From positions 1-38,573 of the forward strand of contig JANXSU010000111.1 in NCBI GenBank assembly GCA_025356545.1: a DNA stretch of 38,573 nt, read 5' to 3'. Shown piece by piece: positions 2,901-38,466 of the stretch (positions are counted from its first letter, which is position 1; each line of letters opens with the position of its first letter). Below the pieces are notes generated by a model, which saw nothing but the letters and a program-made list of their open reading frames with translations, was not told the DNA's origin and did not search any database. Made by a program: the position numbers and the translations under genes. The stretch is from Comamonadaceae bacterium (lineage in GTDB: Bacteria; Pseudomonadota; Gammaproteobacteria; Burkholderiales; Burkholderiaceae_C).

Positions 2901-5900
2901 TTAACGGGCCAGCACCGGTGCCAGCGCGACCCCGGTGTGCGTGCTCAGCCGCACCACGTCCTCCGGCGCCGCAGCCGCCACGATACGCCCACCGGCTTGG
3001 CCGCCTTCGGGGCCAAGGTCGATGATCCAATCGGCTTCGGCGATCACGTCCAGGTCGTGCTCGATCACCACCACGCTGTGGCCGCCGTTGACCAAGCGGT
3101 GCAGCACGCTGATGAGCTTGTCCACATCGGCCATGTGCAGGCCCACGGTGGGCTCGTCCAGCACGTACAGGGTGTGCGGGGCCTTCTGCCCACGCCGGGT
3201 AATGTCGTCACGCACCTTGCTCAACTCCGTCACCAGTTTGATGCGCTGCGCCTCGCCACCGCTGAGCGTGGGTGAAGGCTGGCCCAGGGTGAGGTAGCCC
3301 AGGCCCACGTCTTTGAGCAGTTGCAGCGGGTGGCTGATGTTGGGCATGGCGGCGAAGAAGTCGACCGCTTCGTCCACCTCCATTTGCAGCACTTCGCCAA
3401 TGCTTTTGCCACGCCAGGTGACGGCCAGCGTCTCGGGGTTGAACCGCGCGCCGTGGCAGGTCTCGCACAGCACTTTCACGTCGGGCAAGAAGCTCATGCC
3501 GATGGTGCGCACACCCGCACCCTCGCAGCCCGGGCAGCGGCCTTCACCGGTGTTGAAGCTGAAGCGTCCGGCCAAGTAGCCGCGCGCCTTGGCTTCCAGC
3601 GTCTCGGCAAAGAGTTTGCGAATGGTGTCCCAAAAGCCGATGTAGGTGGCCGGGCAAGAGCGCGGGGTTTTACCGATGGGGGTTTGGTCCACTTCGAGCA
3701 CGCGGTCGATGGGTTCGAAACCGCTGACGCCGTCGCAGCCAATCCACGCCAGTGCCTCGCCTGCGGCGAGGGCATCGCGCCCGGCCTTGGTGCTGCGCTT
3801 TTGCACAGCGGTTTGCACGTTGGCCAAGAGCACGTCACGGGCCAGGGTGGACTTGCCGGAGCCGCTGACGCCGGTGACGGCGACCAAGCGTTGCAGGGGG
3901 AGGTTAGCCGTCACGTTGTGCAGGTTATGCAGATGGGCGTTGTGGACGGTGAGCCATTGTTGCTCGTGGGTCGCAGAAATGGGGTCAGAGCCCGATTTCG
4001 TTTGAGTGCTCGCGCGCCGTTGCGATGATGCGGGTTTGCACCATCGTGTAACTGCCCGCCGGCCCGATTTCGTTTGAGTGCTCGCGCGCCGTTGCGATGG
4101 TTGTCCTGAATCGGGATCTGACCCCGTTTCTGCTTTCGCGCTTCGGGGCTGCAACTCACTTTCGGCAGCGGAGAGTGAAGCAACTGCACGCCGCGCCTGC
4201 AACGGGTGCTTCATCGCGTGCAGTAGGTAGCGACCGGTTTGCGAATCGTCTGCGCCGGTGATGTCGGCCAGTTTGCCTTGCGCCACCAGACGCCCGCCGC
4301 GCTTGCCTGCGCTGGGGCCGATGTCAATGATGTGGTCGGCGTGGCGGATGGTGTCTTCGTCGTGCTCCACCACGACCAGGGTGTTGCCTTTGTCGCTCAA
4401 GTTCTTCAGGGCGTTGAGCAATATCTGGTTGTCGCGCGCGTGCAGGCCAATGGTGGGCTCGTCCAGCACGTAGCACACGCCTTGCAGGTTGCTGCCAAGT
4501 TGCGCGGCCAGCCGGATGCGCTGCGCCTCGCCACCCGAGAGCGTGGGCGCGCCCCGGTCTAGGGTGAGGTAACCCAGGCCGACTTCTTCCAAAAATTCGA
4601 GTCGACTTTTGATCTCGGGCACCAGGTCGCGGGCGATGTCGCTCTCACGCTTGGACATGCGGCCTTCGACTTGCAGGGCTGCTACCCAGCGGCGGATGTC
4701 TGTCACGCTCAGGCGTGCAATTTCGGTGATAGACCAGCCCTCACCCCTGCCCTCTCCCAGAGGGAGAGGGGGTAATACTAAGTCCTTGGCGGGGTAAGGG
4801 GCTTGCGCGCCAAACTTCACGGCGCGCGCGGTGGCGTTCAAGCGCGTGCCTGCGCAGGTCGGGCACGCAGCGTCCAGCACCTCGTCCACCTCGGGCTCGC
4901 CAAAGGTTTGTTCACGGCCCTTGTTGTCGTCATCGCGCACCGAATCGTCAAACACCTTGCGCTGCTCTTTACTGAGCTTGACACCGGTGCCCACGCAGTC
5001 CGGGCACCAGCCGTGCTTGCTGTTGTAAGAGAACAATCGCGGGTCCAGCTCGGCATATGAGGTAGCGCAGACCGGACAAGCCCGTTTGGTTGAGAACACG
5101 TGCAACTGACCGAGGCCTGCGGTGGGCGTGCCGTCCAGCATGGCGGCACGCAGCCCCCCCAGATCACTCAACACATGCAGCACGCCCTTGCCGTGTTCCA
5201 GTGCGCGCGCCAGGCACTCGCGCAGCAGGGCTTCGTTGTCGGGCGTGACGTCCAGGCTGACCACGGGCAGCTCGATGGTGTGTTCTTTGAAGCGGTCAAT
5301 GCGCGGGAAGTTAGTGGTCGGCAAAAAATTGCCATCCACCCGCAGGTGCGAATAGCCGCGCGGACGTGCCCAGTCGGCCAGCTCGGTATAGACGCCTTTG
5401 CGGTTCAGCACCAGGGGCGCGAGCAAGCCGATGTGCTGACCGCGAAAGTGGGTCAGCAATTGCGCGGCGATGCTGTCAGGCGTTTGCGGCTGCACGGCAG
5501 CCCCGTCATGGATGCAATGCTGCGTGCCCAGTTTGACGTAGAGCAGGCGCAGGAAGTGCCAGACTTCGGTCGTGGTGCCGACCGTGCTTTTGCGCCCGCC
5601 ACGCGAGAGTCGCTGCTCAATCGCCACCGTGGGCGGAATGCCATAGACCGCGTCCACCTCGGGGCGACCTGCGGGCTGCACGATGCTGCGGGCGTAGGCG
5701 TTGAGGGATTCGAGGTAGCGACGTTGGCCTTCGTTGAAGAGAATGTCGAAGGCTAGGGTGGACTTGCCAGAACCGCTGACGCCGGTGATGACGTTGAACT
5801 GGCCGCGTGGGATGTTGACGCTGAGGGACTTGAGGTTGTGTTCTCGGGCGTTGATGATTTGGATGTTGTTTCCTCCGGCGCCAGCGAGCAAATTGGGGTC

Positions 5901-8900
5901 AGAACCCAATTTCGCTTGAGAGGGTTTGTTACCGGAAACATGGCTATCCTGAATTGGGGTCTGACCCCAATTTACTCTTTCTTCAACTCTGTGCGAGCCC
6001 GTGCCTAGCGTGCTGGCGTACTCACGCAGGGCTTGGCCGGTGTGGCTACTTGGGTGCTGGCTCAGGTCTTCGGGGGTTCCGGTGGCCACCACCTCGCCGC
6101 CAGCGTCGCCGCCTTCGGGGCCAAGGTCGATCAGCCAGTCGCTGGCGCGGATGACGTCCAGGTTGTGCTCAATCACCAAGATCGAATGGCCCGCGTCCAG
6201 CAGCTTGCGCAGGGCGCGCATGAGCTTGGCGATGTCGTCAAAGTGCAGGCCGGTGGTGGGCTCGTCAAACAGGAAGAGCGTGCCTTTGCGGGCGATGGCT
6301 TGACGGCTGGCGCTGCTGGTCTTGGCGGCCTGCGCCAAGAAGCCTGCGAGCTTGAGGCGCTGCGCCTCACCGCCGCTGAGCGTGGGCACGGGCTGGCCGA
6401 GGCGCAGGTAGTCCAGGCCGACATCGACGAGAGGCTGCAGGGCGCGGATGACGTCGCGGTCGTTGGCGAAGAGGCGTGCGGCTTCGTGGACGGTGAGGTC
6501 GAGGACGTCGGCGACGCTCAACGAGCGAAAACTGGGGTCAGAGCCCAATTTCGTATGGGCAACTTCTCCGCCGGGAAGGCCGTGTCCTGAATTGGGATCT
6601 GGCTCCACTTTTCTCTCAATCTTCACTTCCAAAATCTCAGGGCGAAAACGCTTGCCGTCGCAGTCTTGGCAGCGCAGGTACACGTCGCTGAGGAACTGCA
6701 TCTCCACATGCTCAAAGCCCGAGCCGCCGCAGGTGGGGCAGCGGCCATCGCCGCCGTTAGCGCTGAATTTGGAGGCGGTGTAGCCGCGTTGGCGTGAGAG
6801 TGCGGCGTTGGCAAAAATCTCACGCAAGGCGTCCCAGGCCCCGACGTAACTGGCGGGGTTGGAGCGTGCGGTTTTTCCGATGGGAGACTGATCCACAAAA
6901 ACCACATCGCCGAGCTGCTCAGCGCCCAGCAAGCGGTCAAACATACCGGGAGCATCGGTGGACTTGCCGAAGTGGCGCATCAAGGCCGGGGCCAGCACGT
7001 CTTGAATCAGCGTGGACTTGCCCGAGCCCGACACGCCGGTCACACACACCAGGCGCCCCAGCGGAATGTCCACACTCACGCCTTGGAGGTTGTGCTCGGC
7101 CACGCCTTCCAGAATCAAACGTGGCGTGTTCTCCACCACCAAGCGCCGAAAGCCCATGCCGACTTGTTTGCGTCCGCCGAGGTAAGCCCCGGTCAGCGTA
7201 TCGGCATGACGCAAGTCATCGGTCGTGCCATCAAACACAATTTGCCCGCCACGCTCACCGGGGCCGGGGCCCATGTCGATCATGCGGTCGGCGGCCAGCA
7301 TCACAGCCGGGTCATGCTCCACCACCACCAAGGTGTTACCCGCATCGCGCAGGCGCTGCATGGCTTCGATGATGCGGTGCATATCGCGCGGGTGCAGGCC
7401 GATGCTGGGCTCATCCAGCACGAACAAGGTGTTCACCAGGGAGGTGCCCAAGGCTGTGGTGAGGTTGATGCGCTGCACCTCGCCACCGGAGAGCGTGCGG
7501 CTTTGGCGGTCTAGAGTCAGGTAGCCAATGCCGACGTCGCACAGGTATTTGAGGCGGGTGCTGATTTCTTCGTGCAAAAGCTTGAGCGCCTGCTGCTCGC
7601 CGGTCCGCGAATGGGCGGCATTCTCCAACTCCATGCGGTCAAAGAAGCGGCGAAGCCGCTCAATCGGCAGCTTCATCAAGTCGTGCAGGCACAAGCCGGG
7701 TAAGGCTTCAAGCTGCGCGCGCGTCCACGTCACTCCGCTGGGCATAAAGCGCTGAGTTGGCTCCAGCACCGCATCTGCATCAGCTTTGCTGCCAATGCGC
7801 CACAGCAGACTCTCGGTCTTCAAGCGCGCACCGCTGCAGGTGCCGCAAGGTGTGTAGCTGCGGTACTTGGAGAGCAGCACACGGATGTGCATTTTGTAGG
7901 CTTTGCTTTCCAAATATTCAAAGAAGCGCTTGATGCCAAACCAGTGCTGGTTCCACTTGCCATTCCAATTGGGCGAGCCGTTGATGACCCAGGCCTGTTG
8001 CTCGGGCGTGAGCTTGACCCAGGGCGTGTCACGGGGGACGCCCGCCGCCTCGGCATGACGCATCAAATCGTCTTGCGCCTCTTGCCAGGCGGGGGTCTGC
8101 ATGGGCTTGATAGCACCAGCACGCAGGGTTAACTTGACGTCAGGGATCACCAGACCGTAATCGACCCCAATGACGCGGCCAAAGCCCCGACACACCTCGC
8201 ACGCTCCCACTGCCGAGTTGAAAGAGAACATCGACGGGATGGGATCGGTGTAGCGCTGATCGCTGTCGGGGCAGTGCAGGCCGGTGGAAAATTTCCACAA
8301 GGCCGGTTCGGCGTCATCGTTCAGCACATACACCACCATGCGTCCGATGCCGCGCTTGAGTGCGACTTCGATGGCTTCGACCACGCGGGACTTTTCAGCG
8401 CTGCTGAGACGGAAGCGATCGGCCACCACGTCGAGCATTTTCCTTGGCCCAGTAGTCGTGGCCACTTCACGCTCGGCCTGCACCTTGGTGAAGCCGCTGA
8501 GTGAGAGCCATTGCGTGACTTCATCCGCCGACGTCGTGGCAGGCAACTCCACCGGAAACGTCACAACCAAGCGTGGGTCGCCAAGAGCTTGCGCACGCTC
8601 CTGCATTTCGGCATAGATCGTCTCTGCCGTGTCATGCCGCACCGGCTGCGCCGTTTGCTTGTCAAACAAGGAGGCCGCACGCGCAATCAAGAGCTTGAGG
8701 TGATCATTCAACTCCGTCATCGTGCCTACCGTGGAGCGCGAGGAGCGCACCGGGTTGGTCTGATCAATGGCGATGGCCGGGGGCACGCCCTCCACCTTGT
8801 CCACAGCAGGCTTGTCCATGCGGTCCAGAAACTGACGCGCGTAAGCCGAGAAAGTTTCGACGTAACGGCGTTGACCCTCGGCATAAAGGGTATCAAACAC

Positions 8901-9026
8901 CAGGCTGGATTTACCCGAGCCGCTAGGGCCCGTGACCACGGTCAATTCACCCGTTCGGATGTCGAGATCGAGGTTTTTGAGGTTGTGCTGACGTGCACCG
9001 CGAATGCGGATGATTCCCTGGGACAT
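2901..9026 (-). CDS. uvrA: fused double-length UvrA-like excinuclease ABC ATPase (2041 aa)
   Basis: Four Walker A motifs (GPSGSGKSS, three GVSGSGKST), four signatures (LSGGEVQRINL, LSGGEAQRLKL, LSGGEAQRIRL, LSGGEAQRIKL) and CxxC zinc modules in both halves. Confidence 0.95.
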   Translation of the reverse strand: MSQGIIRIRGARQHNLKNLDLDIRTGELTVVTGPSGSGKSSLVFDTLYAEGQRRYVETFSAYARQFLDRMDKPAVDKVEGVPPAIAIDQTNPVRSSRSTVGTMTELNDHLKLLIARAASLFDKQTAQPVRHDTAETIYAEMQERAQALGDPRLVVTFPVELPATTSADEVTQWLSLSGFTKVQAEREVATTTGPRKMLDVVADRFRLSSAEKSRVVEAIEVALKRGIGRMVVYVLNDDAEPALWKFSTGLHCPDSDQRYTDPIPSMFSFNSAVGACEVCRGFGRVIGVDYGLVIPDVKLTLRAGAIKPMQTPAWQEAQDDLMRHAEAAGVPRDTPWVKLTPEQQAWVINGSPNWNGKWNQHWFGIKRFFEYLESKAYKMHIRVLLSKYRSYTPCGTCSGARLKTESLLWRIGSKADADAVLEPTQRFMPSGVTWTRAQLEALPGLCLHDLMKLPIERLRRFFDRMELENAAHSRTGEQQALKLLHEEISTRLKYLCDVGIGYLTLDRQSRTLSGGEVQRINLTTALGTSLVNTLFVLDEPSIGLHPRDMHRIIEAMQRLRDAGNTLVVVEHDPAVMLAADRMIDMGPGPGERGGQIVFDGTTDDLRHADTLTGAYLGGRKQVGMGFRRLVVENTPRLILEGVAEHNLQGVSVDIPLGRLVCVTGVSGSGKSTLIQDVLAPALMRHFGKSTDAPGMFDRLLGAEQLGDVVFVDQSPIGKTARSNPASYVGAWDALREIFANAALSRQRGYTASKFSANGGDGRCPTCGGSGFEHVEMQFLSDVYLRCQDCDGKRFRPEILEVKIERKVEPDPNSGHGLPGGEVAHTKLGSDPSFRSLSVADVLDLTVHEAARLFANDRDVIRALQPLVDVGLDYLRLGQPVPTLSGGEAQRLKLAGFLAQAAKTSSASRQAIARKGTLFLFDEPTTGLHFDDIAKLMRALRKLLDAGHSILVIEHNLDVIRASDWLIDLGPEGGDAGGEVVATGTPEDLSQHPSSHTGQALREYASTLGTGSHRVEERVNWGQTPIQDSHVSGNKPSQAKLGSDPNLLAGAGGNNIQIINAREHNLKSLSVNIPRGQFNVITGVSGSGKSTLAFDILFNEGQRRYLESLNAYARSIVQPAGRPEVDAVYGIPPTVAIEQRLSRGGRKSTVGTTTEVWHFLRLLYVKLGTQHCIHDGAAVQPQTPDSIAAQLLTHFRGQHIGLLAPLVLNRKGVYTELADWARPRGYSHLRVDGNFLPTTNFPRIDRFKEHTIELPVVSLDVTPDNEALLRECLARALEHGKGVLHVLSDLGGLRAAMLDGTPTAGLGQLHVFSTKRACPVCATSYAELDPRLFSYNSKHGWCPDCVGTGVKLSKEQRKVFDDSVRDDDNKGREQTFGEPEVDEVLDAACPTCAGTRLNATARAVKFGAQAPYPAKDLVLPPLPLGEGRGEGWSITEIARLSVTDIRRWVAALQVEGRMSKRESDIARDLVPEIKSRLEFLEEVGLGYLTLDRGAPTLSGGEAQRIRLAAQLGSNLQGVCYVLDEPTIGLHARDNQILLNALKNLSDKGNTLVVVEHDEDTIRHADHIIDIGPSAGKRGGRLVAQGKLADITGADDSQTGRYLLHAMKHPLQARRAVASLSAAESELQPRSAKAETGSDPDSGQPSQRRASTQTKSGRRAVTRWCKPASSQRRASTQTKSGSDPISATHEQQWLTVHNAHLHNLHNVTANLPLQRLVAVTGVSGSGKSTLARDVLLANVQTAVQKRSTKAGRDALAAGEALAWIGCDGVSGFEPIDRVLEVDQTPIGKTPRSCPATYIGFWDTIRKLFAETLEAKARGYLAGRFSFNTGEGRCPGCEGAGVRTIGMSFLPDVKVLCETCHGARFNPETLAVTWRGKSIGEVLQMEVDEAVDFFAAMPNISHPLQLLKDVGLGYLTLGQPSPTLSGGEAQRIKLVTELSKVRDDITRRGQKAPHTLYVLDEPTVGLHMADVDKLISVLHRLVNGGHSVVVIEHDLDVIAEADWIIDLGPEGGQAGGRIVAAAAPEDVVRLSTHTGVALAPVLAR
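3974..4132. repeat. REP-like palindromic element, copy 1, with internal 72-bp duplication, inside uvrA
   Basis: Arms ggggtcagagcccgattt (from 3981) and gaatcgggatctgacccc (to 4125), with outer arms cagaaat/gtttctg. The 37-mer cccgatttcgtttgagtgctcgcgcgccgttgcgatg occurs at 3991-4027 and 4063-4099. Core length is 145 bp. Confidence 0.9.
4741..4775. repeat. second palindromic repeat type inside uvrA
   Basis: Perfect 9-3-9 inverted repeat ccctctccc-aga-gggagaggg at 4750-4770, preceded by ccctcacccctg. Encodes LPPLPLGEGRGEGW on the minus strand. Confidence 0.8.
5890..5973. repeat. REP-like palindromic element, copy 2, inside uvrA
   Basis: aattggggtcagaacccaatttcg ... cctgaattggggtctgaccccaattt; core 5895-5968 = 74 bp. 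Confidence 0.9.
6530..6612. repeat. REP-like palindromic element, copy 3, inside uvrA
   Basis: actggggtcagagcccaatttcg ... tcctgaattgggatctggctccact; core 6534-6606 = 73 bp. Confidence 0.85.
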
Positions 9027-26219: not shown

Positions 26220-26933
26220 ATGACCGCTCAAAAACCCGCCGCCAACGCCGCACGCCCAGTGCGCCGCACGCCGGTCAGCGCCAAGTCTGAACAACGGGTG
26301 CAAGACATTCTGCGTGTGGCGCGTGAAGTGTTCTCTGAGCGCGGTTACGAGAACGCCACCACCACCGACATCGCTCAGCGCCTAGGCATCTCGGAAGCCA
26401 CGGTGTTCACCTACTTTCACAGCAAACGCGAGCTGTGCGTGCGCGTCATTGAGGATTGGTACGACGAAATCATCGCCGCCATGGAGGGCGGACTGCCCAA
26501 AGACAAACCCATGGCCGAGCAGTTCGCCTTCATCGTGCGAACCCACTTGCGCCTGTTCCTGATTCAAGGCACCGGCATGTGCGCGCTGGTGCTGTCAGAG
26601 CGCCCCGGCAGCGGCGGAAAAAGCGCCGAACTTGCCGACACCGTGGTCGCCTACCAGCGCCGCTACACCGCCCCGCTCATGGACTTGCTGGCACGCGGTC
26701 AAGCCAGCGGCGACATACGCAAAGACCTGCCGCTGCGCCTGCTGCGCCCCCTCGTTTTTGGCCCCATGGAACATATCTTGTGGGAAGCCGTCGCCACCCA
26801 AAAACCTGCCGACCTTGACGCCACGGCAAAGGCGCTCACCGAGGTACTGTGGCAGGCGATTGCCGCACCAGGAAAGGAACTTGAGCAACTGCGCACTTTC
26901 AGGCAAACCGTATCAAGCGCACTCGCCACTTAA
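26220..26933 (+). CDS. TetR family transcriptional regulator (candidate LiuQ-like regulator of liu genes)
   Basis: RVQDILRVAREVFSERGYENATTTDIAQRLGISEATVFTYFHSKRELCVRVIEDWY, TetR HTH; divergent from liuA. The track ORF starts at TTG 26202. Confidence 0.9.
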   Translation: MTAQKPAANAARPVRRTPVSAKSEQRVQDILRVAREVFSERGYENATTTDIAQRLGISEATVFTYFHSKRELCVRVIEDWYDEIIAAMEGGLPKDKPMAEQFAFIVRTHLRLFLIQGTGMCALVLSERPGSGGKSAELADTVVAYQRRYTAPLMDLLARGQASGDIRKDLPLRLLRPLVFGPMEHILWEAVATQKPADLDATAKALTEVLWQAIAAPGKELEQLRTFRQTVSSALAT

Positions 26934-26962
26934 TCCCGAGCTGAAGCCTTGGCTCGCAAGAC

Positions 26963-27313
26963 TCACGCTGGCCCTGGACCTCTCGGCTTCCTCGTGCGTC
27001 CGACCAGTGCAGCATCCAACCAAGCATCGGGCAACACACGCAGCAATTTGGCCACGGCGGCCATTTGCCAAGGGATGACGGCGTAGCTTGTGCCACGCTC
27101 GATCTTGCGAAAAGTCTTGTCGGCAAACACTTCGGGCTGCATCAGAAAAGGCATGGGGTAGGGGTTACCGCGCATGCTTTCGCTCCAGACGGTATACAAC
27201 GGCAATTGCAATATTTCCCAACCCAAGTTCAGGGCTGTAGTGAGCGCGAGGAAGTGCAAAATCAATTTGCTTCGCGTGAGCGAAATGTGGAGGAGGTGTG
27301 ATTGGTCAAACAT
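26963..27313 (-). pseudogene. chimeric ORF: membrane-protein N-terminus joined to a short-chain dehydrogenase C-terminus
   Basis: LHFLALTTALNLGWEILQLPLYTVWSESM (membrane-protein-like) runs directly into RGNPYPMPFLMQPEVFADKTFRKIERGTSYAVIPWQMAAVAKLLRVLPDAWLDAAL (SDR C-terminal tail). No Rossmann or catalytic region. Start chosen at MFDQSH; the track ORF runs to 27352. Confidence 0.6.
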
Positions 27314-27326
27314 GGAAGCGTCTGAG

Positions 27327-27340
27327 TTGATATAGATCAA
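27327..27340. promoter_or_regulatory. FNR/ANR-type binding site candidate upstream of the copper cluster
   Basis: TTGAT-ATAG-ATCAA, exact match to TTGATN4ATCAA. Confidence 0.7.
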
Positions 27341-27410
27341 TATGTGATCCACTTGCAGTGGCTACATTAAATCGCTCGCATAGTAAATTTTCAGCTGAAC
27401 TTTTAACTCC

Positions 27411-27818
27411 ATGAAGTCTTTCTTCAACAGTCGGAACACACGATACACCGCAATGGTGATGGCGTTCGTTTGGCTGATGACATTGGGGATCGGATTTGCC
27501 AATGCATGTTTGCTAGACGAGTCACTCGGGAACCATGCGCCTACAGCGCAAGTTCAAGCAACGCATCATGACGATGTTGATGAGCAGGCACTGGAGTCCG
27601 ACAAAGCAGTATGTCTTACGGTTTGTGAAGTGGAGAAAACTGCGGTTGTCAAGTTCAAGCAGGAAGACGTTCCTTCAGATTTGCAAGCAGCTCCTGTTGC
27701 GCATTTTCCCGCTCTCACTGTTACGGTGCTCGATCGCAATGATCGTTCTGTGCCGTCAGTAGTCCCCGACTGGCGCGAGCCACCTGTGTCGATCCGCTTT
27801 CTGCGGCTGACAATTTAA
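27411..27818 (+). CDS. uncharacterised protein with N-terminal TM/signal segment; first gene of the copper cluster
   Basis: MKSFFNSRNTRYTAMVMAFVWLMTLGIGFANACLLDESLG...; coding-like, no family recognised. Confidence 0.7.
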   Translation: MKSFFNSRNTRYTAMVMAFVWLMTLGIGFANACLLDESLGNHAPTAQVQATHHDDVDEQALESDKAVCLTVCEVEKTAVVKFKQEDVPSDLQAAPVAHFPALTVTVLDRNDRSVPSVVPDWREPPVSIRFLRLTI

Positions 27819-27964
27819 ATCTCTTTTTGCAGCGGTTGATACCCAGCGCACAGACGCTGGATAGCCCGTCTGCTTCCATGCCTCTGGTCCCTTCAACGGG
27901 TTGACCGGATGCCACCCAATTCTTGCCAGTTTCTCGTTCCTTGCTTCTTTAAATGGAGTTCCAA

Positions 27965-28453
27965 ATGACTAATCTTCGCCATACCGTTCTATCAGTTGCC
28001 ATTGCAACCGCCTCCCTCGGGGCATTTGCCCAGACCGCTGCAGAACACACCCAGCATCACCCCGCGGAGCCAGCGAAAAAAGCCACCAAAGCAGTTGCGC
28101 CCAAAGCGCCTGCTAAAACTGCAGAGTCAATGTCAGCCATGGACATCCAGATGAAAGCCATGCGTGAGATGCACGAAAAAATGATGGCGGCCAAAACTCC
28201 TGAAGAACGTAAAGCACTCATGGGCGACCACATGAAAGCCATGCAAGACGGTATGTCCATGATGGGAAAAATGGGTTCTATGGGTGCAGTGTCTGGAATG
28301 GGCGATATGAAAGGCATGGGCACTGACGCCAAGAAAGGCGGGATGTCTATGGACATGATGGCCCATCACGACATGATGGAAAAGCGCATGGAAATGATGA
28401 CTACCATGATGCAAATGATGATGGATCGCCTACCCACTCCAGCTGCTCAATAG
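27965..28453 (+). CDS. exported methionine-rich protein, probable periplasmic copper binder
   Basis: Signal peptide (LRHTVLSVAIATASLGAFAQ) followed by dense Met/His motifs (MKAMREMHEKMMAAK, MQDGMSMMGKMGSMGAVSGMGDMKGMG, MMAHHDMMEKRMEMMTTMMQMMMD). Confidence 0.85.
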   Translation: MTNLRHTVLSVAIATASLGAFAQTAAEHTQHHPAEPAKKATKAVAPKAPAKTAESMSAMDIQMKAMREMHEKMMAAKTPEERKALMGDHMKAMQDGMSMMGKMGSMGAVSGMGDMKGMGTDAKKGGMSMDMMAHHDMMEKRMEMMTTMMQMMMDRLPTPAAQ

Positions 28454-28517
28454 ATTGCTTTGGCACCCATCGGGTGGGGGTCGAAATCCCTGCTGAATTT
28501 CGTGCATTGAAAGAAAG

Positions 28518-30113
28518 ATGCTTATGTTGAAAAGACGAGCGTTATTCCATTTTTTGGGTGCCACAGCCCTGATGGCTACCGGTGTAGGCCATGCCAAGAC
28601 GGTAGCAGTCAAGCCATTTCGCCACTACCCGTTTGACCCGGTGGATGCAGAAAACTTTTTGCAGAAGCTGTTTATTCCACTAGGCAGCGGTCCATTTGGT
28701 GTTCTGGATGTTGCCGGGCCACTGACCATGCGGGCGACTGCCGCCAGTTTCTCCCTCCTGCCAGGCAAACCATCGCCCTTCCTGCTGTACCCAGAGCAGT
28801 CCGGCAAGGCGTACCAGAACCCTATCCTGCGCATGGAAAATGGTGCGAACCTGAAAGTCACGCTGCGCAATGAACTGGCAGAGCCGACCATCATTCACTG
28901 GCATGGTTTGCACACGCCGGCCAAGATGGATGGACACCCTGCCAGCACAATAGCCCCTGGCCAGTCTTTTGAGTACGACTTCAAACTGCGCAATCGCGGA
29001 GGCACCTACTGGTACCACACCCATGCGCACAACCTCACCGCCAAACAAGCCTATAACGGCTTGGCAAGTTTTTTTCTCGTAGAGGACGAAGACCAACGCA
29101 GGCTGGCCCAATCTGTGGATCTCAAGCTGGGCGAAACGGACCTACCGCTGGTCATCCAGGACAAGCAGTTCGATGGCCAAGGCAGACTGCACTACCAACC
29201 GAACGGGCAGGAAGCCATGATGGGATGGCTGGGTGACATTGTTCTAGCCAACTTGACGCCCAATGCGTACCAGACGGTCGCACCGCGCACCTACCGGCTG
29301 CGCATTCTCAATGGTTCCAATGCACGTATCTACCGGCTTGCCTTTCTGAAAGGGAAGGAGCGTCTGAGCTACACCGTCATCGGAACCGATGGCGGGCTGA
29401 TAGAACGTCCGCAATCCACAACGGAAGCGTTCATTGCACCAGGCGAGCGTCTGGACATTCTGTTTGATGCTGGTCAGGCTAAGGCGGGTGCGTCGGTATT
29501 CCTCAAAAGCCTGCCGTTTGACCCCATGGAGAATGAAGGTGACGCTGGAAGCATGCCCGGCATGGGCGAGAGCACGTCACGCCTGGACATGGGGGCGGAG
29601 TTCAACATCCTGAAGCTCGTGGTCGGCGAAGGAGCGCGCGTTGAATTGAAATTGCCAGCGGAGTTGTCGCACATTGCCCCGATTCCTTTGGCAGGTGCAA
29701 CCAAGCGCAATATCAAGCTATCGCTCCAAGGAATGAACTTCCTGATCAATGGCCGCACTTTCAAAATGGATGAAATCGCCTTTGACGTGAAACGTGGATC
29801 ACGAGAGGTATGGAGTATCAGCAACCCCAAACTGGGGATGCCCCATCCGATTCATCTTCATGGCTTTTCTTTTCAGGTCATTGAGCGCCTCAACAGCCCG
29901 AAGCAAATCGCAGGCTTGGCGAAATTCGACAAGGGGCGCACAGTGAGCGATTTGGGCTGGAAGGACACCGTGTTGGTCTGGCCGGGCGAGACGGTACGCG
30001 TCGCGATTGACTTCAGCCACGACTTACCGGGTGATCAGACCTACATGGTGCATTGCCACAACCTGGAGCATGAGGACGCCGGGATGATGATCAATTACCG
30101 AGTTATTGGATAG
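28518..30113 (+). CDS. multicopper oxidase (periplasmic)
   Basis: HWHGLHTP, YWYHTHAH, HPIHLHGFSF and HCHNLEHEDAGMM copper-ligand motifs. Confidence 0.95.
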   Translation: MLMLKRRALFHFLGATALMATGVGHAKTVAVKPFRHYPFDPVDAENFLQKLFIPLGSGPFGVLDVAGPLTMRATAASFSLLPGKPSPFLLYPEQSGKAYQNPILRMENGANLKVTLRNELAEPTIIHWHGLHTPAKMDGHPASTIAPGQSFEYDFKLRNRGGTYWYHTHAHNLTAKQAYNGLASFFLVEDEDQRRLAQSVDLKLGETDLPLVIQDKQFDGQGRLHYQPNGQEAMMGWLGDIVLANLTPNAYQTVAPRTYRLRILNGSNARIYRLAFLKGKERLSYTVIGTDGGLIERPQSTTEAFIAPGERLDILFDAGQAKAGASVFLKSLPFDPMENEGDAGSMPGMGESTSRLDMGAEFNILKLVVGEGARVELKLPAELSHIAPIPLAGATKRNIKLSLQGMNFLINGRTFKMDEIAFDVKRGSREVWSISNPKLGMPHPIHLHGFSFQVIERLNSPKQIAGLAKFDKGRTVSDLGWKDTVLVWPGETVRVAIDFSHDLPGDQTYMVHCHNLEHEDAGMMINYRVIG

Positions 30114-30143: not shown

Positions 30144-31193
30144 ATGAACTTAAAAATGAACAAGTGGCTTTGGTTGGCGGCGCAAGTTTTTTTGCTTGCT
30201 GCGGGCTCTACCTCTTTTGCCGCCGACCGCAAAATCTACGTCGCCAATGAAGACGCCGGCACACTTAGCGTCATTGACGGAGCGTCGCTCACGACGGTGC
30301 GCAACATCGCGGTGGGCCAGGGCGCGCACAATGTCCAGAGCGCACCCGACGGCAAACGCGTCTGGGTGACCAACAATGGATTGCCCCCATCCGCTGCAGG
30401 CAGTGCGCCGCACAAAGGCATGACCAAGGCAGAACACGGCGACATGTCCGCCACGGGAGAGGTCTGGGCCATTGACACGGCAACGGACGAGGTCGTTGCC
30501 AAAGTGCAGGTTGGCAAACACCCGGCCCATGTGGTACTGACAAATGACGGCAGCTACGCCTTGGTAACCAACGGTGGCGACAACACCGTGAGCGTGGTGG
30601 ACACCGCCACACTAAAGGTGGTAGACACCATACCGACCGGCGCGTTTCCCCACGGCATCCGCGTGAGCCCGGATGGCAAGCAGGCGTACGTTGCAAATTT
30701 GAAGGGTGGAACGGTCTCGGTGATCGATATTGAAAGCCGAAAAGAACTCACCCAGATTGCCGTAGGCAAAGGCCCAGCCCAAGTCGGGTTCACACCCGAC
30801 GGTCGATTTGCCTTCGTGTCGCTCTCGCAAGAAAACCGGGTCGCGGTGATGGACCCGGTCGGCCGCAAGGTAGTTCATACCATTGTGGTCGGCGCCACGC
30901 CCATCCAGCTCTTTGCCACACCGGACAGCCGCTTCTTGATGGTGGCCAACCAGGGCACCCGCAAAGCCCCCGGAAAGACCGTCAGTGTGATAGACCTCAG
31001 CAATTTTGAGCACATCAAAACCATTGGCACGGGCAGTGGCGCACACGGCGTGGCCATCGGCGCGGATGGGCGTTACGCCTATGTGAGCAATGTGTACGCC
31101 AACTCGGTCACGGTCATTGACATCCAGACGGGAAAAGCCGTAAAAACACTCGCAGTAGGCCGCAGCCCCAACGGTATTACGGTTGCACCATAA
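30144..31193 (+). CDS. exported YVTN-family beta-propeller repeat protein
   Basis: Signal peptide, then repeated blades (KIYVANEDAGTLSVIDGASLTTVRNIAVGQGAHNV..., QAYVANLKGGTVSVIDIESRKELTQIAVGKGPAQV..., YAYVSNVYANSVTVIDIQTGKAVKTLAVG). Confidence 0.93.
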   Translation: MNLKMNKWLWLAAQVFLLAAGSTSFAADRKIYVANEDAGTLSVIDGASLTTVRNIAVGQGAHNVQSAPDGKRVWVTNNGLPPSAAGSAPHKGMTKAEHGDMSATGEVWAIDTATDEVVAKVQVGKHPAHVVLTNDGSYALVTNGGDNTVSVVDTATLKVVDTIPTGAFPHGIRVSPDGKQAYVANLKGGTVSVIDIESRKELTQIAVGKGPAQVGFTPDGRFAFVSLSQENRVAVMDPVGRKVVHTIVVGATPIQLFATPDSRFLMVANQGTRKAPGKTVSVIDLSNFEHIKTIGTGSGAHGVAIGADGRYAYVSNVYANSVTVIDIQTGKAVKTLAVGRSPNGITVAP

Positions 31194-31227
31194 CCTTAAA
31201 GCGATAACCAGCGATAAGGAGAACCCT

Positions 31228-31506
31228 ATGAACCACGACCATCACCCGCATGATTCTCAGTCTCCCAATTTTTGGAGATCGCGATACGCCATCGGTCTAG
31301 TCGTACTCGGTGCGATAGCTGCCTACTTTCTGCTCACCGAGCACCTGGCGCATGTCGTTGGGGCGCTGCCGCTATTGATCCTCTTGGCATGCCCCTTGAT
31401 GCATGTGTTCATGCACCACGGCCATGGGAGTCACGGGCACGGTGACGATGCCACGAACGTCGAACCGAAAGAAACTTCGAAGCCAAAATCTGGAGAGCCC
31501 TCATGA
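31228..31506 (+). CDS. DUF2933-like small His-rich membrane protein
   Basis: MNHDHHPHDSQSPNFWRSRYAIGLVVLGAIAAYFLLTEHLAHVVGALPLLILLACPLMHVFMHHGHGSHGHGDD. Confidence 0.85.
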   Translation: MNHDHHPHDSQSPNFWRSRYAIGLVVLGAIAAYFLLTEHLAHVVGALPLLILLACPLMHVFMHHGHGSHGHGDDATNVEPKETSKPKSGEPS

Positions 31507-32153
31507 ACCATGAATCGGCAGCCTACGGGCTTTGGACGCTGGTGATTTTCAACTCCGCGATCTTCATCATGTTCGCCTACAGCTTCTTCAAGCCAGCCAC
31601 CGCGCGAGATTGGCGCAGCTTCAGCGCGTTCTCTGCGTTCATCGTGGCGCTGTTTGTGGAGATGTATGGCTTTCCGCTCACCATCTATCTGCTGTCTGGT
31701 TGGCTGCAAACACAATTCCCAGGACTGGACATTTTGTCCCACAACTCGGGGCATTTGTGGTCCACGGTGCTGGGTGAAAAGGGCGATCCGCATTTCGGCG
31801 TTCTGCATATTGCAAGCTATGTGTTCCTCGGTTTTGGGTTTTACCTGCTGTCTAACGCCTGGAGCGTGCTGTACCACGCGCAACGCCGGCATACCTTGGC
31901 CACGGCCGGGCCGTATGCGCGTATTCGCCACCCGCAATACGTGGCCTTTGTCCTGATTTTGCTGGGCTTTTTATTGCAGTGGCCCACCTTGTTAACACTC
32001 CTGATGTTCCCCATATTACTGGTGATGTACGGGCGTTTGGCGGTAACTGAGGAGGCAGAAATGCGGGCGCAGTTTGGCGCGGCGTTTGACCGTTATGCGA
32101 TGCAAACACCGCGGTTCTTTCCGCGCCTTGCCAAAGGGCCTGCAGCGCAATGA
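31503..32153 (+). CDS. isoprenylcysteine carboxyl methyltransferase (ICMT/PEMT)-family membrane protein
   Basis: GPYARIRHPQYVAFVLILLGFLLQWPTLLTLLMFPILLVMYGRLAVTEEAEMRAQFGAAFDRYAMQTPRFFP, typical C-terminal ICMT signature. Confidence 0.88.
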   Translation: MNHESAAYGLWTLVIFNSAIFIMFAYSFFKPATARDWRSFSAFSAFIVALFVEMYGFPLTIYLLSGWLQTQFPGLDILSHNSGHLWSTVLGEKGDPHFGVLHIASYVFLGFGFYLLSNAWSVLYHAQRRHTLATAGPYARIRHPQYVAFVLILLGFLLQWPTLLTLLMFPILLVMYGRLAVTEEAEMRAQFGAAFDRYAMQTPRFFPRLAKGPAAQ

Positions 32154-32185: not shown

Positions 32186-32512
32186 ATGACAACAGTAGAG
32201 CTTTCAGTTCAAGGCATGACCTGTGGATCGTGCGTGAAGCACGTCACCAAGGCCTTGCAATCGGTGGTCGGCGTGAGCAGGGTCGAGGTCGATTTGGCCA
32301 ACGGGCGCGCGACGGTCGAGGGAGAGTTAGCGTCGGGGGCGGCACCTCTGATTGCGGCATTGGCCAACGAAGACTACCCGGCCCAGCTGGCATCCGGCGC
32401 GGCGCCGGCGCCCGCTCCCAAAGCCGCTGGTTGCCATAACAGCCAAGGCAGCCAAAGCGGCGAAGGTGGTAAAGCAGCCCAAGGTAACAAGGGCGGCTGT
32501 TGCTGCAAATAG
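32186..32512 (+). CDS. heavy-metal-associated (HMA, CopZ-like) protein with Cys-rich tail
   Basis: VQGMTCGSCVKHVTKALQSVVGVSRVEVDLANGRATVEG and C-terminal GNKGGCCCK. Confidence 0.9.
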   Translation: MTTVELSVQGMTCGSCVKHVTKALQSVVGVSRVEVDLANGRATVEGELASGAAPLIAALANEDYPAQLASGAAPAPAPKAAGCHNSQGSQSGEGGKAAQGNKGGCCCK

Positions 32513-32547
32513 CCCGCTTTATTCCCCTTCACATCCGAGGCACCACC

Positions 32548-33180
32548 ATGCGCAAAATTCTTTCTATTTTTCTGGCCGCTGCAACGCTAACCCTGGCGGG
32601 CTGTGGCTACAACACCTTCCAAAGTACGGACGAGCAAATCAAGGCCAGCTGGGCGGAGGTGCTGAACCAATACCAGCGCCGGGCCGACCTGATTCCCAAC
32701 TTGATCAGCACCGTCAAAGGCGAGACCAAGTTCGAGCAGGACACCTTGACCAAAGTGGTGGAGGCGCGCTCCAAAGCCACGGCCATTCAGGCCACGCCCG
32801 AGCTGGTTAACGACCCTGCGGCATTTCTGAAATTTCAACAGGCACAAGGGCAGCTGACCGGCGCTTTGTCGCGTCTGCTGGTGGTGTCCGAGAACTACCC
32901 CAACCTCAAAGCCAACCAGGCATTTCGCGATTTGCAAGCGCAACTGGAGGGCACAGAAAACCGCATCACCGTGGCCCGCAACCGCTATATCAAATCGGTG
33001 CAAGACTACAACGTGACCGTGCGGTCGTTTCCCTCCAACCTGACGGCGATGGTGTTTGGCTACAAAGAAAAAGCCAACTTCACCGTGGAGAGCGAGAAGG
33101 AGATTTCCCGCCCACCCACCGTCAGTTTTGACAGCCCAGCCGCCGCACCACAGGGTGCCTCATCGGGAGTAGTCAAGTGA
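32548..33180 (+). CDS. LemA family lipoprotein
   Basis: Lipobox LAGC; QIKASWAEVLNQYQRRADLIPNLISTVKG and SENYPNLKANQAFRDLQAQLEGTENRI are LemA hallmarks. Confidence 0.93.
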   Translation: MRKILSIFLAAATLTLAGCGYNTFQSTDEQIKASWAEVLNQYQRRADLIPNLISTVKGETKFEQDTLTKVVEARSKATAIQATPELVNDPAAFLKFQQAQGQLTGALSRLLVVSENYPNLKANQAFRDLQAQLEGTENRITVARNRYIKSVQDYNVTVRSFPSNLTAMVFGYKEKANFTVESEKEISRPPTVSFDSPAAAPQGASSGVVK

Positions 33181-34043
33181 GTCTTCAGGGGCTGGCACGC
33201 CGACTCGGCACAGCCCTTGCGCTGTCACTGGCGCTGCTGGTTCCATGCGCCACCACGGCGCAGGTCGCAGTGCCTGCGCTTGTGGGGCACGTGACGGACC
33301 AGACCAAAACCCTGGCACTGGAGCAAATTGCCGCGCTGGAGCAAACCTTGTCGGCCTTCGAGGCGCGCAAGGGTAGCCAACTGGCGGTACTGATTGTTCC
33401 CAGCACCGCGCCTGAAGAGATCGAGCAGTTTGCGTTGCGCGTGGCCGAGCAATGGAAGCTGGGGCGCAAAAAAGTGGACGATGGTGCGATTCTGGTAGTG
33501 GCCAAGAACGACCGTGCGCTGCGCATTGAGGTGGGCTACGGCTTGGAAGGTGCGCTGTCTGACATCACCAGCAAACGCATCATCAGCGAGACCATCACGC
33601 CTCGGTTCAAGCAAGGCGACTTCTTTGGCGGTATTGAGGCTGGCGTTGCGCAGATCATCAAGGTGGTAGAGGGTGAGCCACTGCCCGCCCCCAGCAGCAG
33701 GCCAACAGGAAGTTATGACGATGTGCGTCAAATGCTGCCCGTGCTTTTTATCGCGGCATTGGCCGTCGGCGGCATATTGCGCAGCGTCTTGGGCAAAGTC
33801 CCTGGCGCACTGGTCACGGGCGCTGTGGTGTCTGTCCTGGCCTGGTTTGTGATCGGCACGCTGTTCCTCTCCGTCGTGGCGGGCTTGGGTGCTCTGGTTT
33901 TTACCTTGGTGGGAAGCACACGCATGCTGTATGGCATCGGCGGAATGGGCGGTGGAGGTCGGGGTGGATTCGGGGGTGGAGGTGGCGGATTTAGAGGCGG
34001 TGGTGGCGGTTTTGGCGGCGGTGGTGCATCGGGGAGGTGGTAG
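33177..34043 (+). CDS. TPM-domain (YgcG-like) protein with Gly-rich C-terminus
   Basis: VPALVGHVTDQTKTLALEQIAALEQTLSAFEARKGSQLAVLIVPST..., GYGLEGALSDITSKRIISETITPRFKQGDFFGGIEAG; Gly-rich tail GGGGRGGFGGGGGGFRGGGGGFGGGG. Confidence 0.93.
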   Translation: MSLQGLARRLGTALALSLALLVPCATTAQVAVPALVGHVTDQTKTLALEQIAALEQTLSAFEARKGSQLAVLIVPSTAPEEIEQFALRVAEQWKLGRKKVDDGAILVVAKNDRALRIEVGYGLEGALSDITSKRIISETITPRFKQGDFFGGIEAGVAQIIKVVEGEPLPAPSSRPTGSYDDVRQMLPVLFIAALAVGGILRSVLGKVPGALVTGAVVSVLAWFVIGTLFLSVVAGLGALVFTLVGSTRMLYGIGGMGGGGRGGFGGGGGGFRGGGGGFGGGGASGRW

Positions 34044-34045
34044 TT

Positions 34046-34546
34046 ATGGATATCTTTCGCATCATCAAACATCTGTTTTTCTTGGATTGGCAGGTGCGAC
34101 GGGCTTTTCCGAAGGCGAGCCTTGATGCCATCGCGCAAGCGATCCACGCCAGCGAACAGACGCATGGCGGCGAAATCCGCTTTGTGGTCGAAGCCAGCCT
34201 GGAAGGCGCACCGCTCTGGAATGGGCAGACCACCCGCGAGCGGGCCATTGACGTGTTCTCGCAACTGCGGATATGGGACACCGAGGGTAACAACGGGGTG
34301 TTAATTTACCTGCTGCTGGCGGACCGGTCGGTTGAAATTATTGCGGACCGGGGCATCCATATGCGCACCGGCAGCGCACCCTGGGTGGCCATTTGCCGCG
34401 CTATGGAGCTTGCCTTCTCGAAGTCCGATTTTTTGCCGGGCGCTGTGACCGGCATTACCGCCATTGCCAAAGTGATTGGCCAACACTTTCCCGCGCAAGG
34501 TAAACGCACCAACGAGTTGCCGGATAACCCCGTCGTCTTGACATGA
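34046..34546 (+). CDS. second TPM-domain protein, without signal peptide
   Basis: AIHASEQTHGGEIRFVVEASLEGAPLWNGQTTRERAIDVFSQLRIWDTEGNNGVLIYLLLADRSVEIIADRGIHMRTG. Confidence 0.88.
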   Translation: MDIFRIIKHLFFLDWQVRRAFPKASLDAIAQAIHASEQTHGGEIRFVVEASLEGAPLWNGQTTRERAIDVFSQLRIWDTEGNNGVLIYLLLADRSVEIIADRGIHMRTGSAPWVAICRAMELAFSKSDFLPGAVTGITAIAKVIGQHFPAQGKRTNELPDNPVVLT

Positions 34547-34567: not shown

Positions 34568-37015
34568 ATGAACACCAATCCGCACTCAGAACACGCCCCT
34601 GAACATGTCCCTGAACATGCCCATCACCATGGCGATGCCCATCCTGCAGCACCGCTCCCAGACAGCAAGGCCGGTGAGAATGCTGAGTTGAAAGACCCGG
34701 TCTGCGGCATGACCGTCACGGCCCAGTCGCCGCACCACTCCGAACACATGGGCCGCAGCTTCCTCTTTTGCAGCACCAAATGCAAAGCAAAATTTGATGC
34801 CAGCCCCATGCAATACATGACGGCGTTACACGGTGCGGCGCCTGCAGGCCCCAATTTGATGCAACCAGCCGTGCCCGTGCCGTCGACTGAAACACCGCCC
34901 GCGCCAGCCGCAGCCGGCACCATCTACACCTGCCCCATGCACCCCGAGGTGCGACAGGATCACCCGGGCAATTGCCCCAAGTGCGGCATGACACTGGAGC
35001 CCGTCATGCCCTCCCTGGAGGATGACGACAACCCCGAGCTGCGCGACTTCCAGCACCGCTTTTGGTGGACCCTGCCGCTGACAGTCATCGTGTTCGCGCT
35101 GGCGATGTTCGGCGAGCGTCTGCAACTGATGGAAATGCGAACGCAGAGCTGGGTGGAGTTCGCGCTGGCGTCGCCCATCGTGCTGTGGGCTGGGTGGCCG
35201 TTTTTCACCCGCGGCTGGCAATCTGTGGTCAACCGCAGTCCGAATATGTGGACGCTGATTGGCCTAGGTACTGGCGCGGCCTACGTGTACAGCGTAGCGG
35301 CCACCATCGCGCCGCAGGCGTTTCCAGACTCCTTCATTTCCATGGGCCGGGTGGCGGTGTATTTTGAAGCGGCGGCTGTCATCATCTCGCTCACGCTGCT
35401 GGGTCAGGTGATGGAGCTCAAAGCCCGCTCACAAACGTCCGCCGCCATCAAGTCTTTGCTGGGCTTGGCACCCAAAACCGCGCGCCGCATTCGCCCGGAT
35501 GGCACAGAAGAAGATGTGGCCCTCACACATGTCCACATTGGCGACCTTTTGCGAATTCGCCCCGGCGAAAAGGTGCCCGTGGACGGCGTGGTGACCGAGG
35601 GCGGCAGCGCGGTGGACGAGTCCATGCTGACCGGCGAGCCCCTGCCGGTGAGTAAGCGGGTGGATGACAAGGTGATTGGTGCCACGCTCAATACCAGTGG
35701 TGCCTTGGTAATGCGCGCAGAAAAAGTGGGCTCCAGCACCACGCTCTCGCAAATCGTACAGATGGTGGCCCAGGCCCAGCGTTCCAAGGCCCCTATGCAA
35801 CGTATGGCAGATGTGGTGGCCGGCTACTTTGTGGTCTCAGTCGTAGCCATTGCGCTGCTTACCTTCTTTGTCTGGGGCTTCTTTGGCCCTGCGCCCAGCT
35901 GGGTCTATGGCCTAATCAACGCGGTGGCGGTACTCATCATCGCCTGCCCCTGCGCACTGGGCCTGGCCACACCCATGTCCATCATGGTGGCAACGGGCCG
36001 GGGGGCGACCCAGGGGGTGTTGTTCCGCGATGCCGCTGCGATTGAGAACTTCCGCAAGATTGACACGCTCATCATCGACAAAACCGGCACGCTCACGGAG
36101 GGCAAACCGTCCTTTGACCGCGCCGTGCCCGCGCAAGGGTTTGAAACGAGCGAAGTGCTGCGCCTGGCTGCCAGCCTGGACCAAGGCAGCGAGCACCCCT
36201 TGGCAGAAACCATTGTGCGCGCCGCACGCGCGCAAGGCATGACGCTGGACAAGCCTGAAAACTTTGAGTCGGGCTCCGGTATTGGAGTGCGTGGCCAGGT
36301 AGGCGGGCGACAGTTGGCGCTGGGTAACACCACGCTGATGGAGCAAATCGGCGTTTCGGTGGGATCCATGGTGGCGCAAGCCGAGGCATTGCGCATCGAG
36401 GGCGCCAGCGTGATGCACCTGGCAGTGGATGGCCAGTTGGCGGGTCTGTTGGCCGTGTCCGACCCCATCAAGGCCAGCACGCCCGAGGCTTTGGCAACCT
36501 TGAAAGCCGCAGGCCTAAGGATCATCATGGCCACGGGGGATGGCCTGACCACGGCCAAAGCCGTGGGTGCCAAACTGGGCATTGACGAGGTCTATGGGGA
36601 AGTCAAACCGCAGGACAAACTGGCACTGGTGGAGCGCCTGCAGAAAGAGGGCCGCGTGGTTGCGATGGCCGGTGATGGCATCAACGATGCACCGGCTTTG
36701 GCCAAAGCCGATGTGGGTGTGGCCATGGGTACGGGTACGGATGTGGCCATGAACAGTGCGCAGGTGACCTTGGTGAAGGGTGACTTGCGGGGCATCGCGG
36801 TGGCGCGCTCGCTTTCTGTAGACACCGTGGCGAATATGAAGCAAAACTTGGTGTTTGCGTTTTTGTACAACGCACTGGGCATTCCGGTCGCCGCCGGGGT
36901 GTTGTTCCCCTGGACGGGTTGGTTGCTGTCACCACTGATCGCTGCCTTGGCCATGAGCTTCAGCTCGGCGTCGGTGATTGGCAACGCGCTGCGCTTGCGT
37001 GGACGCAGAGAATGA
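34568..37015 (+). CDS. P1B-type heavy-metal (copper/silver) translocating ATPase with N-terminal YHS and HMBD domains
   Basis: His-rich start; YHS-like [45 protein letters not shown] motif ACPCALG; phosphorylation site [35 protein letters not shown]. Confidence 0.95.
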
Positions 37016-37815: not shown

Positions 37816-38466
37816 ATGTGCTTCTCTGCGACTGCAAGTTTTTCAGCGGGGATTGTTCTACTGAGCGTCGGCGTTCTGGCGGTCAAGTCTGCGCGTGGAC
37901 CGCGTGAAGTACCGCTCGCCGCGATTCCACTTCTCTTCGCCATCCAGCAACTGATCGAAGGTGTTGTGTGGTTGACGTTCCGTTATGAGGCACCGCTGCT
38001 CAACGCAGCGATGACGCACGCGTACACTTTTTTCTCCCACGTCCTGTGGCCGGTGTATGTCCCCGCGGCTGTGCTGCTGATCGAACCAGCCGGGTGGCGT
38101 CGCACCACTTTATGGGGAATCGTTGCAGCAGGCGCGGCCGTGGCCATTTACTTCATGTACATGCTGGTGGCGTTCCCAGTGGTCTCGCGTGCCACAGGCC
38201 AGCATATCGAGTACGTTTCTCCTCATTTCTTCGCAGCCGCGGTGATGAGCGGCTACTTGCTGTCGACGGCCGTCAGCCCGATGGTCTCCACATATCGGTG
38301 GGTGAAGGTGTTTGGCATGCTCGCGCTGGCGTCATTTGCAGTAGCCTACTACTTTTACGCCCGCTGGTTCATCTCTGTGTGGTGTCTTTTTGCCGCGATG
38401 CTGAGTCTTGTTTTGTGTGTGCATTTGACCTCAGGGACGCGGCGAACTAGAGCGAGCGCAGCATGA
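37816..38466 (+). CDS. DUF6629-like multi-TM membrane protein
   Basis: MCFSATASFSAGIVLLSVGVLAVKSARGPREVPLAAIPLLFAIQQLIEGVVWL... Confidence 0.8.
   Translation: MCFSATASFSAGIVLLSVGVLAVKSARGPREVPLAAIPLLFAIQQLIEGVVWLTFRYEAPLLNAAMTHAYTFFSHVLWPVYVPAAVLLIEPAGWRRTTLWGIVAAGAAVAIYFMYMLVAFPVVSRATGQHIEYVSPHFFAAAVMSGYLLSTAVSPMVSTYRWVKVFGMLALASFAVAYYFYARWFISVWCLFAAMLSLVLCVHLTSGTRRTRASAA

Follow-up and report, generated by a model that had tools for sequence, protein, structure and literature searches.

A class II FNR promoter geometry is conserved upstream of an exported leader gene that heads a copper-handling cluster in Burkholderiaceae

The stretch of DNA analysed here (the window) comprises positions 1 to 38,573 of contig JANXSU010000111.1 from a Comamonadaceae bacterium. 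It contains a perfect FNR/ANR-type palindrome followed by a set of genes for copper handling. The features that surround the palindrome are arranged as follows.

26963..27352, − strand: divergent chimeric ORF, the start of a membrane-protein gene joined near 27175 to a short-chain dehydrogenase C-terminus
27327..27340, + strand: FNR box TTGATATAGATCAA, perfect and palindromic, read directly from the sequence
27363..27368, + strand: −10 hexamer TACATT, offset by 36 nt from the start of the box, read directly from the sequence
27375, + strand: predicted transcription start, placed by class II geometry (box centre at −41.5)
27411..27818, + strand: leader gene, first of the operon, for a 135-aa exported protein with a signal sequence, ANAC, CLTVC and a C-terminal IRFLRLTI
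27953..28453, + strand: Met/His-rich exported protein, which comes next after the leader in most relatives
28518..30113, + strand: multicopper oxidase, CueO-like, by domain matches
30144..31193, + strand: YncE/cytochrome-D1-like beta-propeller protein, by domain matches
31228..31506, + strand: DUF2933 protein, its start set at an internal ATG of the ORF 31183-31506
31503..32153, + strand: isoprenylcysteine methyltransferase family membrane protein, by domain matches
32186..32512, + strand: CopZ-like heavy-metal-associated domain protein, by domain matches
32500..34546, + strand: three ORFs, for a LemA protein and two proteins with TPM domains
34568..37015, + strand: P-type ATPase bearing the domains YHS and HMBD; its translation shows CPC, YN...P and MxxSS, the motifs of Cu(I) pumps
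37816-38466, + strand: DUF6629 protein, near the contig end

The letters at 27327-27340, ttgatatagatcaa, have no mismatch to the target TTGAT-N4-ATCAA, which confirms the exact consensus match proposed by a first-pass annotation of this DNA; the −10-like TACATT that it had placed at 27363-27368 is likewise present in the sequence. The box centre lies at 27333.5, so that with +1 at 27375 the arithmetic of the class II position (−41.5) holds, and the start codon of the leader gene (27411) is 84 nt from the box start. The perfect palindrome occurs once in the window and 15 times in the 3.26 Mb assembly, where the other 14 copies apparently lie mostly within genes. At the genome's own rate, about 0.2 copies would be expected per 38.6 kb and, with the others mostly intragenic, the palindrome of the window is by itself weak evidence. 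All the genes of the cluster lie behind the box on the + strand. The leader is separated from the Met-rich gene by 134 nt, a gap that contains an inverted repeat at 27840-27863 and no clear shared regulator site, and the later gaps are of about 64 nt or less. Two further observations concern the surroundings. An imperfect 22-nt palindrome, TAAATTTTCAGCTGAACTTTTA, is located at 27384-27405, between the −10 and the start codon, and is not obvious upstream of the relatives' leader genes; an RNA structure between the start site and the ATG was considered and rejected because folding was no better than that of shuffled sequences. Far from the box, a 2041-aa ORF at 2901-9026 (− strand) has duplicated UvrA domains and is apparently a tandem UvrA protein.

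The leader protein had no match in Pfam or NCBIfam. Its family is recognisable by a signal sequence, ANAC, a middle part rich in His, CLxxC and the sequence RLTL conserved at the C-terminus. An assignment to LpqS or CzcI, proteins of copper or cation efflux, was rejected: NCBIfam gave nothing for the window protein and weak matches in a few members of the family (best E-value 0.0013 for LpqS and 0.0056 for CzcI).

Relatives of the multicopper oxidase and of the leader were gathered, and the regions upstream of the leader homologues were compared. The comparison set comprised 40 non-identical regions from more than 20 genera, mostly Burkholderiaceae. TTGAT-N4-ATCAA was found with at most one mismatch in 37 of them, about 60-100 nt before the start codon (no mismatch in 16, one in 21 and two in the remaining 3), and most of the substituted boxes retain the FNR/ANR pattern TTGAY-N4-RTCAA. 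This pattern, or a version of it with a single base changed, precedes the start codon of almost all the leaders by 62-95 nt. At the same threshold, a box preceded 0.65% of the 932 starts of other ORFs taken from comparable DNA and was present in 0.05% of shuffled upstream regions. A TAnnnT sequence follows the box start by 35-37 nt in 32 of the 40 regions (offset 35 in 22, 36 in nine and 37 in one) and at offsets 16-34 in none of the 40. Since the remaining spacer bases between the box and the −10 are variable among relatives, the conserved unit is a protein site together with a −10 at a fixed distance, which is the geometry predicted for a class II FNR promoter and bears out the position assigned to the box of the window. 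Leader homologues share 25-60% identity with the window protein, so that the conservation does not merely reflect recent copying, though the upstream regions are not fully independent. The conservation of the box in position and spacing far exceeds chance. Class- and order-wide profile searches for leader homologues outside the family were limited to ten scored candidates in each genome, so some will have been missed; several distant leader-like matches from other families have no box upstream.

The loci of the multicopper oxidases gave a second line of evidence. A box (TTGAY-N4-RTCAA) lies within 2.5 kb in 15 of the 16 loci that also carry the leader gene, and in the sixteenth TTAAT replaces TTGAT. 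When the leader gene is missing, the box was found at two of 64 loci, both from Polaromonas (three of the 64 have fewer than 500 bases of upstream DNA). The box goes with the leader gene, not with multicopper oxidases in general. The same leader-region matches appear in a contig labelled Thiobacillus denitrificans RG and in a Polaromonas MAG, which points to recent transfer or to a mislabelled assembly.

Across many genera the leader directly precedes copper genes, and the operons it heads often extend into genes for PPK2, FabI, Pta (phosphotransacetylase), AckA (acetate kinase) and DUF3141. An FtsH gene is located near the operon in one relative, and heavy-metal two-component genes are found near the clusters of some relatives. 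Plasmid pPNAP02 of Polaromonas naphthalenivorans CJ2 harbours two copper operons that are separate from each other and both headed by a leader (2583 and 21811 of the 42-kb region, L215; leader genes at 86647 and 105875 of the plasmid). In each, a box lies 65 nt before the leader and is followed by TAGGAT at offset 35. These two boxes are the only such sites in the 42 kb, and a further copper operon of the plasmid, adjoining a two-component regulator, has no box. The second of the leader operons has nearly the same gene set as the window.

The genome encodes a canonical FNR with four cysteines, which is the candidate regulator for this box. The protein contains CSNCNLRELC together with a fourth cysteine aligned to FNR and a recognition helix with LETVSR; its closest solved relative is FNR 5cvr (E 5e-51), with which these residues align. 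In searches of the genome with two CRP-family profiles, it was the only protein to combine an FNR-type recognition helix with the FNR cysteines; helices of the CRP type (SRE..SR) occur in two other members of the family, and a further one, which lacks E..SR, fits neither type. The gene ccoN is a typical FNR target; cco genes are well known to be controlled by FNR. As a positive control, ccoN of this same genome is closely preceded by a near-identical box, TTGATCTACATCAA. Another contig of the genome (C146; position 1501 of L009) also carries a perfect FNR box, roughly 30 nt ahead of a gene for a universal stress protein. Regarding copper sensors, the genome has no CueR match to TIGR02044 at E ≤ 0.001, and none of its response regulators exceeded the cut-off for CopR/CusR, below which seven full-length related regulators were found. 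CueR, CusR and CsoR operators were sought in 26900-28600 and rejected, the best CueR-like match having 4 mismatches and lying inside the leader gene; the earlier statement that no CueR-like site is present therefore holds. The cluster may nevertheless be subject to additional copper control.

Several known systems offer points of comparison. The FF-41.5 test promoter is an example of a class II FNR/ANR-dependent promoter (PMC4505428). With promoters of this class the window shares TTGAT-N4-ATCAA at −41.5 and a −10 at a fixed distance; its site differs in preceding copper-handling genes. The low-oxygen-activated (lxa) locus of Burkholderia cenocepacia (Sass 2013) is, according to the accounts in PMC4505428, PMC6127331 and PMC3759415, a set of 50 low-oxygen genes that includes six universal stress proteins. 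An FNR box-like motif has been reported for many low-oxygen-induced genes of this species (PMC4505428). The lxa locus itself has a role in anoxic persistence (PMC9104464). As far as these accounts go, the likeness consists of a low-oxygen gene set with FNR box-like motifs in Burkholderiales and of BCAM0309 (FtsH), which falls in the lxa range as an FtsH gene falls near the operon of one relative. The window, by contrast, holds the copper module only; FabI, Pta, AckA, DUF3141 and FtsH were seen beside relatives, and no identity with lxa is claimed. The PPK2, FabI, Pta, AckA and DUF3141 neighbours recall low-oxygen gene sets such as lxa, in so far as that locus is described in these sources, and may be taken as a lead. 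Clusters from Alteromonas (PMC8478169) and from Acinetobacter, Pseudomonas and Acidovorax plasmids have the same core of DUF2933, isoprenylcysteine methyltransferase and copper ATPase as the window. Unlike that of the window, the clusters of Alteromonas and Acidovorax have MerR-type or two-component regulators annotated next to them, and no leader-gene match was found in the compared plasmids. The Cus system and CopI have been described as important at low oxygen (PMC8910356, PMC13308877). Within the genome under study, the cco locus also has an FNR box near a copper ATPase (CcoI, of ccoGHIS), as in the window; CcoI supplies copper to the cbb3 oxidase, whereas the window cluster looks like detoxification. 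The first-pass annotation had considered FNR control unusual relative to CueR/CopR control. This remains true with respect to the related clusters elsewhere that are annotated beside regulators of the MerR or two-component classes, but not within Burkholderiaceae, where the box is the rule for this operon family.

Bacterial copper defence is usually described as turned on by copper sensors. The arrangement found here suggests a different order of events. At low oxygen, FNR carrying its iron-sulfur cluster would dimerise on the box at −41.5 and contact RNA polymerase, and transcription would start near 27375. The transcript would comprise the leader gene and then, most likely, the genes for the Met-rich protein, multicopper oxidase, beta-propeller, DUF2933 protein, methyltransferase, CopZ, LemA/TPM proteins and Cu(I) P-type ATPase. 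Buffering and export of Cu(I) would thereby be raised when the oxygen level drops and copper comes to be present mainly as Cu(I), the oxygen cue being used instead of, or before, the sensing of copper itself. Control of the leader promoter by FNR is highly probable and is the surest part of this proposal. Taken as a whole, an oxygen-responsive, class II FNR-dependent promoter that reads through into the copper genes is very likely present. Read-through from the leader promoter is itself likely, and the low-oxygen induction of the copper genes depends on it, across the 134-nt gap; we infer both that induction and a benefit to copper tolerance. It is plausible that low oxygen is the chief input, ahead of copper. 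Because multicopper oxidase requires oxygen, strictly anaerobic induction looks odd and microaerobic induction more sensible. No report of FNR control of this operon was found in the literature that could be searched.

Would the promoter instead drive only the leader, as a low-oxygen protein of its own, with the copper genes under a metal-responsive promoter of theirs? The 134-nt gap makes a second promoter possible, and both the inverted repeat in it and the heavy-metal two-component genes near some relatives' clusters would suit such an arrangement. However, no terminator-like site was found on the + strand between the leader and the cluster, the region 26900-28600 offers no CueR, CusR or CsoR-type site, and the leader stays directly before the copper genes in genus after genus, so that a promoter restricted to the leader appears unlikely. 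Use of the box by another CRP/FNR protein, either NO-sensing (DNR/NNR) or FixK-type, would make NO or a kinase cascade the signal. DNR and FixK proteins are established to share the same target sequence, and some relatives may carry them; in the genome studied here, however, the two CRP-family profiles found a single protein with an FNR-type helix, and that protein has the FNR cysteines. With an assembly that is 96% complete, a missed regulator gene is unlikely but possible, and control by such a protein is accordingly rated as quite improbable. That the palindrome is a chance match without a role would agree with its 15 perfect and apparently mostly intragenic copies in the genome. As far as sequence evidence can go, this was rejected as extremely improbable, given its positional conservation with the leader gene (37/40 versus 0.65%), the fixed −10 spacing and its tie to the leader rather than to multicopper oxidases generally (15/16 versus 2/64).

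An oxygen-sensing FNR promoter that serves the leader and the copper genes thus remains the preferred reading. Conserved before a copper cluster in dozens of Burkholderiaceae, plasmid copies included, such a promoter would tie copper handling directly to the oxygen level, and the leader, a widespread uncharacterised protein, would be marked out as part of the low-oxygen response. The broader proposal is that the unnamed exported leader heads an operon for copper defence throughout the lineage, which receives its main input from oxygen through FNR and not from copper, so that Cu(I) stress is anticipated; it has in our judgement an even chance of being right.

The edges of the cluster indicate how it may have reached this genome. 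The ORF at 26963-27352 combines the N-terminus of a membrane protein (LGWEILQLPLYTVW) with the C-terminal ~65 residues of a short-chain dehydrogenase. In Rhodoferax bucti (L050) the membrane-protein gene is intact and divergent. Its apparent start codon is nearly abutted there by the FNR box (L050 4814-4829), for which reason bound FNR might also repress the divergent gene in that organism. Judging from the chimeric ORF, the copper cluster was apparently acquired together with its FNR promoter, the apparent left edge of the insert being near 27175. In two same-genus genomes searched, one of them 58% complete, the leader is absent and the multicopper oxidase has weak matches only; the TetR gene next to the cluster lacks close relatives in the same-genus genomes, hence no empty insertion site was identifiable there. 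The DUF6629 family is also found inside the leader-headed operons of one relative (L189) and of pPNAP02, and on this account the island may extend to the contig end.
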